Shown here piece by piece: positions 2,917-56,779 of a stretch of DNA of 64,000 bases. This DNA comes from Halalkalicoccus sp. CGA53 (GTDB taxonomy: Archaea > Halobacteriota > Halobacteria > Halobacteriales > Halalkalicoccaceae). Both the position numbers and the translations under genes were made by a program. The stretch lies in contig NZ_CP144125.1 of the NCBI RefSeq assembly GCF_036429475.1, forward strand, positions 3,365,521 to 3,429,520, read 5' to 3'. Under the pieces are notes generated by a model. It saw nothing but the letters and a program-made list of their open reading frames with translations, did not search any database and had not been told where the DNA came from. Every line of letters begins with the position of its first letter. The stretch's first letter is position 1.

Positions 2917-4068
2917 GTGACACCCACTATCAATCCTACCACGCGCAGAACTGTCCTGGGAGCAATTGGTTCTGGGAGTGCGCTCGCGCTATCGGGCTGT
3001 CTTATCGGCGATGATGATGATGATGGCGATGAGGACGTCAGACCGATTGATCTCGAGTCGATCCCACCGGATGAGTACGAGTCGACGGTAAACGTTTGGA
3101 ACTGGTACACGGATTGGGTCGATTGGCACGTCGACGAGTTCCAAGATACCTATGAAGATATCGATCAAATAAATACACAGGCATATTCGGGCCCCAGTGA
3201 ATGGTACTCCCAACTGGAAGCGGGTAACGACGAGATCGATAATATCTGTGCCACGAATGAGTGGGTCGTTCGGGCAATGAACAACGACTACTTAGAACCA
3301 TTACCGGTAGACATCATGGACGCGTGGGATGTTTTAACTCCATTGGCTGCTGAAGACGCCGAAGAGTACTACAGCATGGATGGAGAGATCTATGCGATCC
3401 CAGAGTCGATCGTTATGCAACCCTCGCTAACGTACAACGAGGATTACTTCGATAGTCCACCGGATTCTTGGAGTATTCTTTGGGATGAGGAGTTTGACGG
3501 AATGATGTTCATGGAAGATTGGGCCGAGGTCTCCTGCCGTGTTGCCGCACTCTATACTGGTCAGGATCCGAACGATCCCGACGATTTCGAAGAGATCGAA
3601 GAGGTCCTCATGCAGCAACGGGATTTCAACGTCACCTATTGGAACGAATTCTCCTCTGCGATGGAGATGTTCATCAACGAAGAAGTCGTCGTGGGGCCAC
3701 TTCGGGATGGCAGGACCTGGATGGCACGGTATCTCGAGGATTCGCCGATAAATTACGCCGTGCCCGAAGAGGGGATGATGTACACATATGATAACTTCGT
3801 CATCCCGGAGGGAGCGCCAAATCCCCGAGCGAGTACAATGTGGATCGAACACGGCGGACAGATCTCATCGAGGATTCAGCTCTTCGCGCAGATGGGGTAT
3901 GTACCCCCGATCGAGAACTTAGAAGACGAGTTAACCGAGGTGGTGTCAGAAGAAGAAGCTTCGTTCGCTGACTGGCTCGATCCTGATGAACTAATCTTCA
4001 TCGAACCACTGGACGAAGAGACTCTAGAGCGGTATGACGAGATCTGGACGACTGTGGTCGCAGGCTGA
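2917..4068 (+). CDS. potD: Tat lipoprotein substrate-binding protein of a polyamine-type ABC importer
   Basis: A 383-residue extracellular solute-binding protein. The N-terminus has a twin-arginine motif (TRRTVLG, about residues 9-15), a hydrophobic stretch and a lipobox ending LSGC, so the mature protein is probably exported folded and anchored by lipid at the cysteine. An acidic linker (IGDDDDDGDED) follows, then a PotD-like binding domain with VNVWNWYTDWVD near the mature start. The start is GTG; the TATA box 26 nt upstream and the placement of the Tat signal support it. It is the first gene of a four-gene operon with potA, potB and potC homologues, 11 nt before the ATPase. Polyamine specificity is inferred from the PotABCD family and from the deacetylase-fold gene downstream; other small cations or organic solutes remain possible. 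Confidence 0.8.
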   Translation: MTPTINPTTRRTVLGAIGSGSALALSGCLIGDDDDDGDEDVRPIDLESIPPDEYESTVNVWNWYTDWVDWHVDEFQDTYEDIDQINTQAYSGPSEWYSQLEAGNDEIDNICATNEWVVRAMNNDYLEPLPVDIMDAWDVLTPLAAEDAEEYYSMDGEIYAIPESIVMQPSLTYNEDYFDSPPDSWSILWDEEFDGMMFMEDWAEVSCRVAALYTGQDPNDPDDFEEIEEVLMQQRDFNVTYWNEFSSAMEMFINEEVVVGPLRDGRTWMARYLEDSPINYAVPEEGMMYTYDNFVIPEGAPNPRASTMWIEHGGQISSRIQLFAQMGYVPPIENLEDELTEVVSEEEASFADWLDPDELIFIEPLDEETLERYDEIWTTVVAG

Positions 4069-32330: not shown

Positions 32331-32564
32331 CTATGCAGTACACTGCAAAATCCAGTTGCTACCTTTGTCTGTTATTTCGTATAGTCCTGTTTCTTTATGA
32401 TGATATCTCACCAGGTCATAAGTTCGTAGCCACTTGAGACTCTCTCCAATATAATTTTCGTGTTTGTCAATCTGGCCCGCTCATGATCCTCTCGTTTCTC
32501 GCCCTTCTGAGAGTAGGGTTAGGATTTCTTTATCGGTATCATTGAGATCGGAAGGTGACTCCAT
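32331..32564 (-). pseudogene. winged-helix (PhiH1-like) gene with in-frame stop
   Basis: Read on the minus strand, 27 codons (PSDLNDTDKEILTLLSEGRE) are followed by TGA at 32481-32483. In the same frame the fold then continues: AGQIDKHENYIGESLKWLRT, DLVRYHHKETGLYEITDKG, to a TAG at 32331. The two parts together make a complete haloarchaeal winged-helix domain, so a single sense codon (for example TTA to TGA) was lost. Restart downstream of the stop would leave half a domain. It is related to the gene at 54977-55207. Confidence 0.65.
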
Positions 32565-32728
32565 TTAGCAAGTATTTGGCTGCATTCGATTTCATACTTG
32601 TGTACACTACTTACTCACTAACCCACTTTTAATAGAACCGTTCTACAGAAACACTTGTACCACAAAGTTTCATAGAGAATATCCCCTACTATGGGCTCCA
32701 AAGTGCGGTATCGCCAGGAAGTAGAACT

Positions 32729-32775
32729 GGCCCGGTGGTGCTACACCGGACCGCGCTTCCCCGATCAGGAGAAGC
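32729..32775 (+). promoter_or_regulatory. two-hairpin leader A, abutting a start codon
   Basis: Stem 1 pairs CCGGTG (32732-32737) with CACCGG (32744-32749) around a six-base loop. It extends outward across one C.A mismatch to GG/CC. Stem 2 pairs GCTTC (32755-32759) with GAAGC (32771-32775). The ATG of the first small CxxC gene follows one base later at 32777. Leader B at 55363-55408 has the same layout, including the mismatch. Confidence 0.6.
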
Positions 32776-32776
32776 A

Positions 32777-32974
32777 ATGAAATCTAGCCACTCATCCTCA
32801 GAAAACAGTATCGCCTTCCAATACCCAATTACCGGACCCCACATGGAACCACCGACGATCCCCAACGCTACCACCTACTGGCGCTGCAGTTCCTGCGCTC
32901 GAGAATCCACGCGCGAACGGGACCTCTACCGAACCACGTTCCACGCCCTGAGCTGCGAGGTCCACGAATGTTGA
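32777..32974 (+). CDS. small CxxC protein
   Basis: A 65-residue protein with WRCSSCARESTRERDLYRTT and LSCEVHEC near the end, giving a CxxC and a second Cys pair that could form a small zinc ribbon. The ATG at 32777 directly follows the hairpin leader; the frame is open 14 codons upstream but that region is the leader. The stop overlaps the next CxxC gene by 7 bp. Function unknown; a nucleic-acid-binding or partner protein is plausible for so short a zinc ribbon. Confidence 0.5.
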   Translation: MKSSHSSSENSIAFQYPITGPHMEPPTIPNATTYWRCSSCARESTRERDLYRTTFHALSCEVHEC

Positions 32975-33231
32975 TCACCGCCCCTGCCGAACAGCTCCTC
33001 AAGGGCTACCAACTTCGAGAGGAGAGCTGTGGTTACTGTAAGACCACCCTCCACGAGGGCGACCGTGTCAGCGCCTACGCGGTCCAGTACGCGGGCGACG
33101 ACGACTGGTCGGTCCCACGGCTGTACTGTCGGGACTGTCGACCGACCATCTCCAATACACTCGGCGCGACCGAGCTGCTCGCCGACGGACGCCTCGGCTT
33201 CAGGGTGTCTGCAGAGCCCCCTCGATTTTAG
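32968..33231 (+). CDS. small CxxC protein with EGD motif
   Basis: An 87-residue protein. CGYCKTTLHEGDRVSAYAV and LYCRDCR supply two CxxC pairs about 30 residues apart, as in a split zinc ribbon. The gene at 55722-56105 has the same order (CRECSRTLTEGD, then VCKSCP), so these are paralogues in two similarly organised operons. It overlaps the preceding gene by 7 bp and converges on glmS with 7 bp between stops. Confidence 0.6.
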   Translation: MLITAPAEQLLKGYQLREESCGYCKTTLHEGDRVSAYAVQYAGDDDWSVPRLYCRDCRPTISNTLGATELLADGRLGFRVSAEPPRF

Positions 33232-33238
33232 AGTGAAC

Positions 33239-35041
33239 CTACTCCACCGTCACACTCTTCGCGAGGTTCCGGGGTTTGTCGATCGACCGACCGAGTTCGG
33301 TCGCGACCCAGTACGACACCAATTGTAGCTGGACGTTCGCCAACACCGATCCCACGAGTTCGCCAGTCGGAGGGATCCACAACACGTCTTCTCCGTACTC
33401 CGCGGCGTCGCTCTCCCCGTCGGTTACGACGACGACCGGTGCGCCCCGCGAGGCGACCTCGCGAACGTTCCCGATCGTCTTACGCGCGCTCTCATCGTCT
33501 CCGGTAACGACCGCGAACACCGGCGTTTCGTCGGTGACGAGCGCGAGCGGGCCGTGTTTCAGCTCGCCCGCGGCGAACCCCTCCGCGTGCTCGTAGCTGA
33601 TCTCCTTCATCTTCAACGCGCCTTCGAGCGCGACCGGGTGGTTGTACCCTCGCCCGATGAAGAAATACGCGTCCGACTCGTCGTACCGGCGGGCGACCTG
33701 CTCTGCGTTCGACGTGTCGAGCACCGACTCGAGCTGATCGGGTAACGCCAACAGATCCGATAGTACCTCGTCGCCCTCACCGGTCAGCGCGCAGGCGAGC
33801 ATCGCGAGCGCGACCTGCTGACTAGCGAACGTCTTCGTTGCGGCCACGCTGATCTCCGGACCGGCCCGGACGTACAGCACGTGATCGCACTCGCGGGCGG
33901 CACTCGAAGCGACGACGTTCGTCACCGCGAGCGTCGTCGCGCCCGCTCGATCCGCCTCGCGCAACGCCCGGAGGGTGTCGGCTGTCTCCCCGCTCTGGGT
34001 GACGCCGACGACGAGCGTCTCCGAGTCGATCGGTATCGATTCCGTGGTGTACTCGCTCGCGAGGAACGCCTGTGCGTGGACGCCACGCGTGCGAAACAGT
34101 CGAGCGCCGATCAGCGCCGCGTGATACGACGTCCCGCAGGCGACGAACTGGACCGGTCCGTTCGCGTCGAGATCCTCCAGTCCCTCGAGGTCGACCGATC
34201 GATCACGCCCGTCGATCCGACCCCCGAGACACTCGCGGAGCGCCCGCGGCTGCTCCATGATCTCCTTGAGCATGTAGTGGTCGTACTCGCCTTTCTCGGC
34301 GTCCTCGGGGTCCCAGGATACCGTGTGGACCTGCGGCGACAGCACTCTTCCGTCGTCGCTCGTCACCTCCACACCAGCTGGTGAAAGCCGGACGAACTGG
34401 CCGTCCTCGAGGTAGATCACCCGGGCGGTGAACTCGACGAACGCGGTGACGTCGCTCGCGATGAACCCGCCCGTGTCGCGGCATCCGACGACCAGCGGCG
34501 AGCCCCATCTCGTTGCGAGAACCGTGTCCGCTCCCTCGAAGAGCACCGCGATCGCGTAGTTCCCCTCCAGCCGGGAGACTGCCTTCTGGAACGCAATCTC
34601 GGGGTCCACACCCCCACAGAGGGCGTCCTCGATCAGGTGCGGAACGACCTCGGTGTCGGTCTCGCTCTCGAACGTGTGACCCGCCTCGGTCAGTTCCGAC
34701 CGGAGCGCCCGGTAGTTCTCGATGATCCCGTTGTGGACGACGGCGATCTCGCCGGTGCAGTCGGTATGCGGGTGAGCGTTCGCGTCCGACGATTTCCCGT
34801 GTGTACTCCAGCGGGTGTGACCGATCCCAGCCCACGCCTCGCCCGATCGCGACATCGAGTCGAGGGCCTCCTCGAGCGCGTCGAGTTCGCCCTCGCGTTT
34901 CACCACCGTGAGTTCGTCGTCGACGAGCGCGACGCCCGCCGAATCGTACCCCCGATAGTCGAGGCCAGAGAGACCGCTTCGCAGGACCTCGAGGACCGCT
35001 GGCCCGTCTGCACCATCGATGTAGCCGACGATTCCACACAT
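33239..35041 (-). CDS. glmS: glutamine-fructose-6-phosphate aminotransferase (isomerizing)
   Basis: A 600-residue enzyme that makes glucosamine 6-phosphate from fructose 6-phosphate and glutamine, the entry step to UDP-GlcNAc for surface glycans. The N-terminal glutaminase domain starts [10 protein letters not shown] with Cys2 as nucleophile. The isomerase part has two SIS domains with TSYHAALIGARLF, VGVTQSGETADTLRAL and GRGYNHPVALEGALKMKE. It ends with the conserved KSVTVE tail. Length and motifs are complete. The upstream region and both gene ends are duplicated at 54300-54840 as a deletion relic. It lies between the two glycan blocks, consistent with supplying amino sugar to both. Confidence 0.95.
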   Translation of the reverse strand: MCGIVGYIDGADGPAVLEVLRSGLSGLDYRGYDSAGVALVDDELTVVKREGELDALEEALDSMSRSGEAWAGIGHTRWSTHGKSSDANAHPHTDCTGEIAVVHNGIIENYRALRSELTEAGHTFESETDTEVVPHLIEDALCGGVDPEIAFQKAVSRLEGNYAIAVLFEGADTVLATRWGSPLVVGCRDTGGFIASDVTAFVEFTARVIYLEDGQFVRLSPAGVEVTSDDGRVLSPQVHTVSWDPEDAEKGEYDHYMLKEIMEQPRALRECLGGRIDGRDRSVDLEGLEDLDANGPVQFVACGTSYHAALIGARLFRTRGVHAQAFLASEYTTESIPIDSETLVVGVTQSGETADTLRALREADRAGATTLAVTNVVASSAARECDHVLYVRAGPEISVAATKTFASQQVALAMLACALTGEGDEVLSDLLALPDQLESVLDTSNAEQVARRYDESDAYFFIGRGYNHPVALEGALKMKEISYEHAEGFAAGELKHGPLALVTDETPVFAVVTGDDESARKTIGNVREVASRGAPVVVVTDGESDAAEYGEDVLWIPPTGELVGSVLANVQLQLVSYWVATELGRSIDKPRNLAKSVTVE

Positions 35042-41444: not shown

Positions 41445-42575
41445 ATGAAAATACTTCGAGTCGCACAAAAGGTATATCCTGAAGTTACTGGTGGCGGCCC
41501 GTACCACGTCCACGCAATGAGTCGCGATCAGGCTGCGATGGGTCACAACGTAACAGTGCTAACTGTTTCAGACGAGGTAGAAGAGGTAAGTCACCAAAAC
41601 AAAGCCGGCTACACGCTGGTAAAGCACCCTGCCACTGTTAGCCCTCTTGGGAACGACATCTCATTACCGTTAGCGCGAACCCTGTGGAACGAGTACGGTT
41701 ATGACGTGATTCACGCGCACTCACATATGTACTTCTCGACGAATTTAGCCGCTCTCCGTCGACGTCTCGGGTCACCTCCACTCGCGATCACGAACCACGG
41801 TCTCTACTCACAAAACGCTCCTCGAGCGATCTTCGGTCTCTACCTCCGCACCGCAGGTATATGGACGTTCAACTCGGGAGACCTCGTGTTCTGTTACACC
41901 GAAGAGGGGATGCGACGCGCCCGGAAATTTGGCGTGAAGAGCGATATCGAGATCGTCGCGAACGGGATCGATCAACAGCGCTTTACATCGAACGGTGAGC
42001 GAAGCGCGGAGATCGATCCTGACCGGCCCTCCGTTCTCTGTGTGGTTCGATTGGTCGAAGGGAAACGACCAAAAGACGCGATAGAGGCGATCGAAGGGGT
42101 TATTGACGACCATCCCAGTGTAGTTCTCTACCTCTGCGGTGAGGGACCGCTCCGAGAAAACCTCGAAGGGTACATCCGTAGAGAGGGAATCGAAGATCAC
42201 GTCGTGTTCCTCGGGAACGTCGATTACGACGAAATGCCGAAACTATATCGTTCGTGTGACGTGGTTATCCTGCCGAGCGAAGCAGAGGCAGGGTCACCTC
42301 GGGTGCTGCTCGAGGCGATGGCGTCCGAGAAGCCGTACGTCACGAGCGAACTCTACCAGGTCACCTCGTTGATCAAAGACCTCGGCAAGACAGCACCAGT
42401 CGGCGATATCGATTCGCTCGCCGAAGGTCTCGACGAGCTACTCTCGGATGAGGAGCTTCGAAACGATCTGGGAATCAAGGGACGGGAAATGGTCGAAGAA
42501 CAGTTCACCTGGGAGTCGACGGTCGATGGTGCGACAGAGGCGTTAGAGCGGCTGGTTCGACGTGAGAAGCGATGA
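41445..42575 (+). CDS. GT4 family glycosyltransferase
   Basis: A 376-residue GT-B enzyme starting MKILRVAQKVYPEVTGGGPY with HVHAMSRDQAAMGH. The C-terminal domain has VLCVVRLVEGKRPKDAIEAI and LPSEAEAGSPRVLLEAMASE with both catalytic-region glutamates. It is related to the enzyme at 22521-23714, with the same opening and the same HAHSH-x-x-FST motif (HAHSHMYFSTNL). The stop overlaps the start of the next GT4 gene (ATGA), so the two are coupled. Confidence 0.85.
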   Translation: MKILRVAQKVYPEVTGGGPYHVHAMSRDQAAMGHNVTVLTVSDEVEEVSHQNKAGYTLVKHPATVSPLGNDISLPLARTLWNEYGYDVIHAHSHMYFSTNLAALRRRLGSPPLAITNHGLYSQNAPRAIFGLYLRTAGIWTFNSGDLVFCYTEEGMRRARKFGVKSDIEIVANGIDQQRFTSNGERSAEIDPDRPSVLCVVRLVEGKRPKDAIEAIEGVIDDHPSVVLYLCGEGPLRENLEGYIRREGIEDHVVFLGNVDYDEMPKLYRSCDVVILPSEAEAGSPRVLLEAMASEKPYVTSELYQVTSLIKDLGKTAPVGDIDSLAEGLDELLSDEELRNDLGIKGREMVEEQFTWESTVDGATEALERLVRREKR

Positions 42576-54047: not shown

Positions 54048-54299
54048 ACACCAGCTGTGAGGACCGGTTCGGGATCCTGACCGTGATACCCCTCTCAGAG
54101 TTCACAGCGGTGCCCGACGGCGAGCAAACCGGTGTCCAAACAGACCTCGAGACCCGGCCACCGGAACCCCATCATCGAACCGGTCTGGTACGCGACGTGA
54201 CTGATCGCACTCTTCGTGATCGATCTGAAAGTGACAGGGACCGAGCTCTGTGTGAGTCGAATCCTGATGCTAGCCACACGACCGCGTTTCCTCGGCCAT

Positions 54300-54670
54300 G
54301 GTGAACTGGATCCGATCGAGTTTGTTCGCGATGCAGGACGAGACCAGCTGGAGCTGGACGTTCGCCAGCACCGACACTGACGAGGAGGAATCCACAACAC
54401 GTCCTCTCCGTGCTCCACGGCATCGCTCTCCCCGTCAGTGATCACGACGACCGGGGCGCCACGCGACTGGATTTCCCGGACGTTCCCGATCGTCTTCCGG
54501 GCCTGTTCGTCATCGCCGGTGACCACGGCGAACACCGTGAGCTCGTCGTCGACGAGCGCGACACCCGCCGAATCGTACCCCCGATAGTCGAGCCCGGAGA
54601 GACCGCTTCGCAAGGCATCGATGACCGCTGGCCCGTCTGACCCACCGATGTAGCCGACGATGCCACACAT
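54300..54670 (-). pseudogene. glmS: glmS deletion relic
   Basis: It starts [14 protein letters not shown] and keeps the first 46 codons up to DDELTV. It then jumps in frame to [20 protein letters not shown], codon about 509 of the intact glmS at 33239-35041. A second small deletion after WIPP shifts frame; the remaining text still matches [12 protein letters not shown] and A-x-x-L-x-R to near the original end. The junction shares CGGTG with both parental sites. The catalytic domains are gone, so the product cannot be an active enzyme. Confidence 0.9.
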
Positions 54671-55207: not shown

Positions 55208-55362
55208 GACGATTATTTCGTTACCGCCTATTACAAGGTTACTGTTGGAACCAACGGATGAATCATATTCCGTCAGCTTTCGTAGTGAGTTTACAAAGTA
55301 ATCTATATCAGGCTGGCCACGTTAGAGGTACTGTGAAGCGCGGACTGCTGAGAATTGGTCTC

Positions 55363-55408
55363 GGCCGGGTGTCCAAGCACCCGACCTCGCGCTTCCAAGG
55401 CAGGAAGC
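55363..55408 (+). promoter_or_regulatory. two-hairpin leader B, abutting a start codon
   Basis: Stem 1 pairs CGGGTG (55366-55371) with CACCCG (55378-55383) around a six-base loop, extended past a C.A mismatch to GG/CC. Stem 2 pairs GCTTCC (55391-55396) with GGAAGC (55403-55408). The ATG at 55409 follows immediately. Relative to leader A the second pair of stem 1 is exchanged (C-G to G-C), a compensatory change. Confidence 0.6.
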
Positions 55409-55600
55409 ATGCAAACGAACACGCCCACGGCTAATGAGAGTAGCGACGAACGAAGACCCACCGACCGGCCGCTCGACGGCGCACGCTCGCTCCTCAGAGC
55501 GACGCTGTTAGACGATCGACTCCCGGAGTTCGAGGTCTATCAGGCACTCTGTGAGTGCTCACTCCCGCGATCGATCACGGACTTAGAGGAGCGGCGATGA
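55409..55600 (+). CDS. small acidic protein of the CxxC operon
   Basis: A 63-residue protein with a polar N-terminus and a helical second half (LLRATLLDDRLPEFEVYQAL, CECSLPRSITDLEERR). Two Cys lie in a C-x-C. The ATG directly follows hairpin leader B; 18 upstream codons in the same frame belong to the leader. The stop overlaps the next ATG (ATGA). No family is recognised. Confidence 0.45.
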   Translation: MQTNTPTANESSDERRPTDRPLDGARSLLRATLLDDRLPEFEVYQALCECSLPRSITDLEERR

Positions 55601-55725
55601 GTCCCAGCGAGACCGACCTCCTCGAGTGTCCGGTCTGTGGCGCGCTCGGACTCACCGAACGGATCGTCGACCACGACTGTCGTGCGTTCCTCGAGAGCCG
55701 ACACCGGAGACCCCGCTCGCTATGA
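55597..55725 (+). CDS. 42-residue zinc-ribbon protein
   Basis: It encodes SETDLLECPVCGALGLTERI then VDHDCRAFLESRHRR. C-P-x-C-G is a classic half zinc ribbon; the second half is H-x-C. Its ATG overlaps the previous stop and its TGA overlaps the next ATG at 55722 (both ATGA). Continuous coupling on both sides supports a real gene despite its size. Confidence 0.5.
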   Translation: MSPSETDLLECPVCGALGLTERIVDHDCRAFLESRHRRPRSL

Positions 55726-56105
55726 GGGTCGAAACGACGCTCGAACAGGCGCTCTCGGGAACGACGATCACGCTCGCATCTCAGGTTCGGTGTCGTGAGT
55801 GCTCGCGAACACTCACCGAGGGCGATCCGATCCTCGCAGGGTCGGAAAAACGAGGCGGTGAGTGGACGCTCACGCGGGTGGTCTGTAAGAGCTGTCCACC
55901 GGAACCCCCGACCGACACCCCGATCGTCTCGGGTCGGATCGCCAGCACGGCCGACCTCGCGAACCAGCGACACACACTTACGCTCTCCGACGTCGGACTG
56001 ATCGAGACGGCTCGCCACGACGACTCCGAATGTAATGAGCAGACCGACCCCATCCCAGCGTGTCGGCCGAGCCGATCCCCGAACCCGGAGGGCGAGAACG
56101 GGTGA
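55722..56105 (+). CDS. CxxC protein with EGD motif
   Basis: A 127-residue protein. CRECSRTLTEGDPILAGSEK and VVCKSCPPEP supply two CxxC pairs about 35 residues apart, paralogous to the protein at 32968-33231. The C-terminal half (TADLANQRHTLTLSDVGLIE onward) is extra. The start is coupled to the 42-residue gene. The last codons overlap the next GTG start at 56102 (GTGA). Confidence 0.6.
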   Translation: MRVETTLEQALSGTTITLASQVRCRECSRTLTEGDPILAGSEKRGGEWTLTRVVCKSCPPEPPTDTPIVSGRIASTADLANQRHTLTLSDVGLIETARHDDSECNEQTDPIPACRPSRSPNPEGENG

Positions 56106-56779
56106 ACCCGGACAAACCAACACTCGCGTCCATCTCCGAGCGTCTCGACGAACTCACGGAGCGCGTCGGGGACCTGGAGACCGAGCTGCGTGGGCTCGAA
56201 TCCGAATCGAGATCGGAATCCACGGTCGAAACACAGCCCACTCTCGAACTCCGTGGGACCACCTCCCCGGACGATGCGAGCCTCGATCAGATCTGGATCG
56301 CCGGCCATCCGATCGGGCTGATGCTCACGCGCCGTCGGCGGGAGATCGAACGGCTTCGCGAGGAGATCGACGAACGACGCCTGGACGGTCTCGAAACCGA
56401 CCTCCCCGCAGATCGCCTGCTCCCGATCCAGCAGGTCACCAGGACCTCCGAGGTCGATCCCTCGGTTCTGAGCGCGAACGATCGACGTGCGGCGGTCGTC
56501 TGGTCGAACCTCTTCGAGAGCTGTGATCGCACCCCGACGAAACTCGTCCTCGACTCGAGCGCGGTAAAGACGATCCTGCAGGTGAGCGAGGGGGAACGCC
56601 CGCACAACGAGACCGTCCGACGCGTGATGGAGCGTGTCGCCGACCTCGCCGGGGACCTCGTTAGCTGTGAGATCCACCGGACGAGAAAGGCACTCGTGAT
56701 CGATCGAGCCGAGCTCGCCGCGTTCGTCGACGACATCGACGAGCGGTTCGCGATTGCCGAACAGGAGAGAACCCGATGA
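56102..56779 (+). CDS. coiled-coil protein of the CxxC operon
   Basis: A 225-residue protein. The N-terminal coiled coil (LASISERLDELTERVGDLET) is followed by a linker, then a second helical segment (LTRRRREIERLREEIDERRL). The C-terminal domain (about 130-225) has NDRRAAVVWSNLFESC and SSAVKTILQVSEGERPHNET with alternation typical of winged-helix DNA-binding proteins. A GTG at 56060 is possible, but 56102 overlaps the previous stop as in the rest of the operon. This may be the effector or DNA-binding member of the operon. No known family is recognised. Confidence 0.55.
   Translation: MNPDKPTLASISERLDELTERVGDLETELRGLESESRSESTVETQPTLELRGTTSPDDASLDQIWIAGHPIGLMLTRRRREIERLREEIDERRLDGLETDLPADRLLPIQQVTRTSEVDPSVLSANDRRAAVVWSNLFESCDRTPTKLVLDSSAVKTILQVSEGERPHNETVRRVMERVADLAGDLVSCEIHRTRKALVIDRAELAAFVDDIDERFAIAEQERTR

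Follow-up and report, generated by a model that had tools for sequence, protein, structure and literature searches.

The add adenine riboswitch is a translational riboswitch whose aptamer is a three-way junction. For the induction of archaeal viruses, only repressors and one antisense RNA are, to our knowledge, known as controls. Our literature search turned up synthetic riboswitches of haloarchaea, a haloarchaeal S15 leader, and papers on the viruses phiH, phiCh1 and ChaoS9. This search, which covered literature other than the original phiH and phiCh1 transcription papers, returned no description of the element reported here and no report that the phiH and phiCh1 leaders form a conserved RNA family; an earlier remark on the hairpins of those single leaders is possible. 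A structured RNA that occurs in about half of the haloarchaeal genomes sampled, in the model viruses BJ1 and ChaoS9 and, as a homologue, in phiH and phiCh1 has apparently gone undescribed.

Two copies of this element, A and B, are located in the 64-kb window, i.e., the whole stretch of DNA that was analysed (Table 1). Copy A contains GG-C-CCGGTG (32732-32737)/GTGCTA/CACCGG (32744-32749)-A-CC, then GCTTC (32755-32759)...GAAGC (32771-32775), one base, and the ATG at 32777. Copy B contains GG-C-CGGGTG (55366-55371)/TCCAAG/CACCCG (55378-55383)-A-CC, then GCTTCC (55391-55396)...GGAAGC (55403-55408), and the ATG at 55409. Direct reading of the letters confirmed what a first-pass annotation had described in both leaders, i.e., GG, a C.A mismatch, a 6-bp stem, a 6-base loop, ACC and a second stem, as well as the swap of one pair in stem 1 with retained pairing, and the close contact with the start codon, the second stem ending 0-1 nt ahead of the ATG in both copies. 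The two hairpins of that description correspond to P3 (stem 1) and P4 (stem 2) and were placed correctly; however, the outer helix P1 and the hairpin P2 had been overlooked. The full element is approximately 75 nt long: the closing helix P1, P2 and P3 make a three-way junction, and P4 and then the start codon follow. Because P1 and P2 had been missed, the true extents, about 32701-32779 for copy A and 55335-55411 for copy B, are longer than first noted. The GG is present as described, but across the family it mainly closes P2 and is not an extension of stem 1. In full, copy A reads AAGTGCGG TATC GCCAG GAAGTAGAA CTGGC CCGGTG GTGCTA CACCGG ACC GC GCTTC CCCGATCAGGA GAAGC A ATG, and copy B has an identical plan. 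Folding z-scores of the first-noted stretch were -2.5 to -2.9, exceeding what chance would give, and the three-way junction appears directly in the minimum-energy folds of further copies.

Table 1. Coordinates of the two leader copies and of the surrounding genes in the window.
Feature	Positions	Strand	Evidence
Copy A, TATA/BRE-like box AAGTTTCATA (AAGTTTTATA in relatives L026/L034)	32665-32674	+	sequence; A+T peak across upstream regions
Copy A, P1 5' strand AAGUGCGG	32701-32708	+	pairs with 32751-32758; folding, model alignment, covariation
Copy A, P2 hairpin (GCCAG...CUGGC), strands 32713-32717/32727-32731	32713-32731	+	folding, model alignment, covariation
Copy A, P3 hairpin (CCGGUG-GUGCUA-CACCGG), stem 1	32732-32749	+	sequence, folding, model, covariation
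Copy A, P1 3' strand CCGCGCUU, last bases common to P4	32751-32758	+	folding, alternative-pairing analysis
Copy A, P4 start-codon hairpin (GCUUC...GAAGC), with SD-like AGGAG	32755-32775	+	sequence, folding, covariation
Copy A, broken divergent winged-helix regulator upstream	32334-32564	-	tblastn 78-79% identity, 77 aa, to intact relatives; one in-frame stop
Operon A gene 1, 65-aa CxxC protein	32777-32974	+	weak RYYR-CCHC match below cut-off
Operon A gene 2, 87-aa CxxC protein	32968-33231	+	
Copy B, P1 5' strand GAAGCGCG	55335-55342	+	pairs with 55388-55395; sequence, model alignment
Copy B, P2 hairpin (GCUGAGA...UCUCGGC), strands 55347-55353/55359-55365	55347-55365	+	model alignment, covariation
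Copy B, P3 hairpin (CGGGUG-UCCAAG-CACCCG), stem 1 of second copy	55366-55383	+	sequence, folding, model
Copy B, P1 3' strand CGCGCUUC, also used by P4	55388-55395	+	sequence, alternative-pairing analysis
Copy B, P4 start-codon hairpin (GCUUCC-AAGGCA-GGAAGC)	55391-55408	+	sequence, folding, model alignment
Copy B, divergent winged-helix regulator upstream, 76 aa	54977-55207	-	phrog_38164, E=2.7e-32; homologue in virus BJ1
Operon B gene 1, 63 aa	55409-55600	+	
Operon B gene 2, 42 aa, CPVC motif	55597-55725	+	
Operon B gene 3, 127 aa, CxxC	55722-56105	+	relatives at three further copies in same genome
Operon B gene 4, coiled-coil protein	56102-56779	+	GTG start assumed

The tiny CxxC operons that had been ascribed to both leaders are found in operon A and in genes 2 and 3 of operon B; gene 1 of operon B contains no CxxC. 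A winged-helix gene does lie near each copy, as claimed, intact at copy B and a relic at copy A. Both copies are located in or beside a polysaccharide gene region, with no evident complete provirus around them in the window; they resemble small leftover modules. Beside copy B lies a glmS-like gene (54095-54670, minus strand) that seems to have lost an internal part, and a complete glmS (33239-35041, minus strand) adjoins operon A; this pair suggests a past duplication in the region. Copies A and B as parts of one duplicated region were considered and rejected: the two differ in gene content, and many genera carry the element.

Four further copies were detected in the same genome, one of them on the second replicon, ahead of related operons or other small genes. 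A covariance model built from four copies, with copy A left out (R1), recovered copy A in the window (33 bits, E=1.7e-6); its only other matches there were copy B and one weak 13.8-bit match on the P3 of copy B itself. Matches to R1 were present in 19 of 59 relatives. Using a refined model of 32 sequences (R2), we obtained matches in 202 of 391 haloarchaeal genomes of the class, representing 64 of 86 genera, with best E-values of about 1e-12 per genome (E-values are rough because the calibration was short). In a phylum-wide sample of 295 genomes there were 27 positives, all 27 in the same order, and no match outside that order. The many further matches with compensatory changes are what the first-pass annotation had named as support; by contrast, its view of a single CxxC gene family as the target did not survive, since the downstream genes differ greatly and include SWIM zinc-finger, RYYR-type CxxC and wHTH genes along with many that are uncharacterised. 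The common denominator of the loci is a divergent regulator combined with an early-operon, provirus-like setting.

Covariation was analysed in 100 matches (94 distinct), mostly outside the model-building sequences. Standard pairs were formed in 95.0% of the cells, compared to 73.0% in shuffled alignments and 33-41% in slid registers. Fitting of the alignment to the model works in favour of the pairing figures; the slid-register controls speak against the fit as the explanation. There were 405 double-change cells versus 111 in shuffles, and none of 500 shuffles reached the observed value. Double changes occurred in 20 of 22 pairs, every P2 pair being changed on both sides, and in 19 of 21 pairs of a separate RNAalifold prediction for the same alignment. 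In a mutual-information ranking that is blind to structure, the top pairs were those of P3, P2, P4 and P1, plus the two ends of the P3 loop. Of the 94 sequences, 45 have C.A and 29 have U.G at these ends, i.e., isosteric wobbles, and the only conserved unpaired positions that stand out are in the P3 loop (T48, 93%) and at A60/C61 (about 70%). We rejected the view that inversion of the P3 loop (CTGGAA versus the reverse complement TTCCAG) reflects an inverted piece of DNA, given that TGGA occurs with both closing pairs; the reverse complement is present for 8 of 28 six-base P3 loops, and the isostery of U.G and C.A is the simpler reading of the loop variants.

An ORF starting with ATG begins at the 3' end of the match in 132 of 136 matches. 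Among 133 distinct upstream regions, the A+T maximum lies at -39..-31, counted from the start of the element, as in an archaeal TATA box, and the element starts about 30 nt downstream of this box. In phiH, the early lytic transcript T4 starts at 34556 according to the annotation of the GenBank record. This position is the first base of the helix GACGAAGG.../...CCUUCGUC and opens GACGAAGGUAAUCGC, which is paired with GCGGUUGCCUUCGUC around a P2/P3 pair; the minimum-energy fold of the T4 leader is the same three-way junction. The record accordingly places the start of transcription at or a few bases before P1 for phiH T4, and TATA spacing points to the same location elsewhere. A transcript beginning after the hairpins, which the first-pass annotation had named as contrary evidence, was not seen: phiH T4 starts at the first base of the element.

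Codons 9-13 of the element-led genes (about 32801-32815 and 55433-55447 in the window) carry a nucleotide motif, W26 W27 R28 A29 NNN T33 NN C36 G37, at a fixed distance from the ATG in unrelated proteins. The third base of codon 11 is T in 90 of 120 cases versus a 13% background, and G37 is found in 114 of 120. The mutual-information ranking revealed no strong covariation between this motif and the leader columns. A conserved hairpin in the coding sequence over the motif was rejected as well, inverted repeats being found in some families and not in all.

A divergent small regulator gene is present within 600 nt of 115 of the 136 matches (median distance 114.5 nt), compared to 1 of 136 control stretches, and for none of the 136 matches was a small regulator gene found on the same strand within that distance. 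The divergent regulators belong to two families, wHTH (phrog_38164 at the window copy) and RALLTDRERE-type (phrog_26393). The latter (RALLTDRERE...YQAISRVR, no Pfam match) replaces the winged-helix regulator in many loci, e.g., L010 783-1043 (minus strand), and is a candidate for an unrecognised provirus regulator family. A tyrosine integrase lies within 20 kb of at least 11 of 68 elements, with 2.1 expected (P=6e-6).

Using an exact-pattern search, we found the element in viral contigs; a protein query read through stops and one other exact pattern yielded no viral contigs. In BJ1, the match (3512-3600, E=5.9e-6) has the winged-helix ORF6 on one side and, on the other, the ORF7-14 operon, which includes a SWIM gene; element and operon lie ahead of a Cdc6-like gene. 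In ChaoS9, the match (42016-42095, E=1.1e-7) is flanked by an HTH gene on one side and on the other by an operon, after which comes orc1. The phiCh1 homologue, which occupies intergenic sequence with the repressor gene and ORF49 as neighbours, is a weaker match (E=0.0075). The phiH homologue has a weak covariance score (15.3 bits in an unfiltered local search) because its P4 has a long loop, and the covariance-model search found no element in the phiH T1 leader. These are the features of a temperate-virus early control region, i.e., a divergent regulator, an early operon, and occurrence in authentic viruses (BJ1 and ChaoS9, and more weakly phiCh1 and phiH). In phiH and phiCh1, no start codon is annotated directly after the element; a strong GC-rich hairpin follows instead (L172 34145-34175 in phiCh1, L173 34668-34690 in phiH), possibly a terminator or a variant platform. 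For BJ1 ORF7 (AM419438.1, 3547) and ChaoS9_315 (MK310226.1, 41997), the annotated start is inside or before the leader, and the likely true ATG is at 3598 and just after 42095, respectively.

The 5' strand of P4 is the segment GCUUC, into which P1 continues on its 3' side. The GAAG preceding P1 can extend P1 over GCUUC, the positions involved being paired in 99, 95, 97, 90 and 85%. In constrained folding, the P1-extended and P4 states differ by a mean of -1.55 kcal/mol (sd 3.7) and are within 3 kcal/mol of each other in 55% of copies; the summed probability of both pairings is 0.92. SD-like 4-mers are present in the P4 loop in 54% of cases versus 23% after shuffling. In 20 variant copies, the copy's own 5' strand pairs at 3.95 of 5 positions versus 3.89 of 5 for the consensus strand, only one position being clearly significant (p=0.0025). 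Triple covariation of the 5' strand, GCUUC and P4 is convincing in single copies (L028, L040, phiH); the statistical test was weak, and only complementarity is claimed.

We are inclined to regard the feature, a structured 5' leader that precedes early operons of temperate viruses of haloarchaea and of elements resembling proviruses, as an RNA switch on translation initiation. According to this model, P1, P2 and P3 fold into a three-way junction at the 5' end of the early-operon mRNA, and GCUUC would pair either backward (extended P1) or forward (P4, with the SD-like stretch in its loop and its end at the start codon). Extended P1 would leave the start region open (ON), whereas P4 would mask it (OFF). 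Since the 5' part would fold first, the start region is predicted to be open by default through extended P1, and P4 would be able to mask it once P1 is lost. A putative junction-binding factor would tip the equilibrium and in this way govern the first genes of the lytic/early operon, and this leader control would sit beneath the transcriptional control exerted by the divergent regulator. We infer that the two states may interconvert in the cell, that ON and OFF are probably assigned as above, and that a trigger may exist. An SD is often dispensable in haloarchaeal translation, so masking may matter less. Further points against the switch are the scarcity of independent co-change between the P1 extension and P4 in the variant copies, which is its weak spot, the missing annotated start codon next to the element in phiH and phiCh1, and the near lack of G-U in P3 and P4. 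A more far-reaching version is offered tentatively, as a possibility rather than an expectation: a natural archaeal-virus RNA switch, in which a widespread ligand- or protein-sensing leader gates early lytic translation as part of the lysis/lysogeny decision across haloarchaeal proviruses, and which would be the first riboswitch-like class of natural origin in haloarchaea to be linked with the induction of viruses.

The first-pass annotation had left RNA and DNA readings side by side. If the conserved sequence were a DNA operator or a recombination site made of inverted repeats, no asymmetry between G-U and A-C cells would be expected from the palindrome, and comparison of the two is therefore decisive for P1 and P2. 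The ratios are 23:2 for P1 and 60:0 for the P2 core; thus, it is the transcribed (mRNA-sense) strand that is selected, as RNA, and a DNA operator spanning the whole element is rejected for these two helices. Unlike P1 and P2, P3 and P4 show strict double changes, with 0 of 534 and 1 of 562 G-U cells, respectively (alignment A6), and gave no signal of G-U over A-C in this strand test. Such strictly Watson-Crick stems are what an operator would show, and DNA-binding regulators and integrases are indeed found in the neighbourhood; yet the arms are free to vary, and TATA box and start codon fix the register, so that we give this reading hardly any credence. The scarcity of G-U in P3 and P4 is not explained by simple RNA stability and could come from a second constraint, at the DNA level or in protein recognition, or from templated correction of inverted repeats. 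The strand test and the start-site evidence both favour RNA. We consider it virtually certain that the element is a leader RNA, conserved and widespread, of early operons of the provirus type in haloarchaea.

The remaining alternatives concern what this RNA does. The junction might bind a protein, either from the host (ribosomal or RNA-binding) or from the virus (a small zinc-finger protein), that blocks or permits translation with no small molecule being sensed. Many downstream genes encode small zinc-finger-like proteins, a haloarchaeal S15 leader imitating a three-stem junction has been described (PMC7247131), and the fixed geometry and the conserved P3 loop (with its closing C.A or U.G) would suit a protein ligand. 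However, the first downstream gene varies widely and the RNA does not, which makes simple autoregulation by the first gene product unlikely, and no ribosomal-protein gene was noted downstream; we consider the protein-bound leader rather unlikely, and still the least improbable of these alternatives. A passive structure that protects the 5' end of the early transcript, or sets a fixed translation level without switching, would agree with the very stable folds and with the weak independent covariation between the P1 extension and P4. Against it, almost all copies have a GCUUC that can pair with either side, with near-balanced states, and a passive cap would not require the hairpin to end at the start codon, as it does almost without exception; this renders it improbable. 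Finally, the hairpins might be contact points for a counter-transcript, or a processing target, as for phiH T1, the leader over which an antisense transcript runs according to the record annotation and to the title of Stolt and Zillig (1993), as cited in PMC6210493. It is T1, though, in which the model finds no copy, and the chance that this explanation applies is slight. For the translational switch that we favour, the leader RNA is a concrete, testable candidate for a post-transcriptional control point in archaeal virus induction and a candidate natural expression switch for haloarchaea. The leader model also corrects gene starts in virus records and serves as a search model for provirus early operons.

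Compared to translational riboswitches of the add type, the leader is similar in having three helices around a junction, a P1 strand common to the start-site hairpin, and a 5' UTR location reaching up to the start codon; it differs in being archaeal, in preceding early viral rather than metabolic genes, and in having no known ligand. It also differs from the known riboswitch classes, which are included in Rfam, in that Rfam 15 gave no family at the gathering score in the 64-kb window; permissive scans gave none for copy B and, for copy A, one chance-level CcsR1 match (16 vs 65.3 bits). With crcB and other riboswitch classes shared by archaea (PMC2864571), it has in common that these are conserved archaeal 5' UTR RNAs, whereas the structure is different and the Rfam scan found none of them in the window. 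The S15 ribosomal leader motif of Halobacteria (PMC7247131) is likewise a haloarchaeal structured leader with a multistem junction. The two are set apart by gene context, S15 leaders being located ahead of ribosomal-protein genes and our element ahead of provirus-type genes, which encode small zinc-finger, SWIM, wHTH and uncharacterised proteins and not ribosomal proteins. The phiH T4 leader and the phiCh1 repressor-operator region differ from the other copies in a longer P1 extension, a longer P4 loop and the missing adjacent start codon; they are the same in structure and position, and in phiH the mapped start coincides with the first base.
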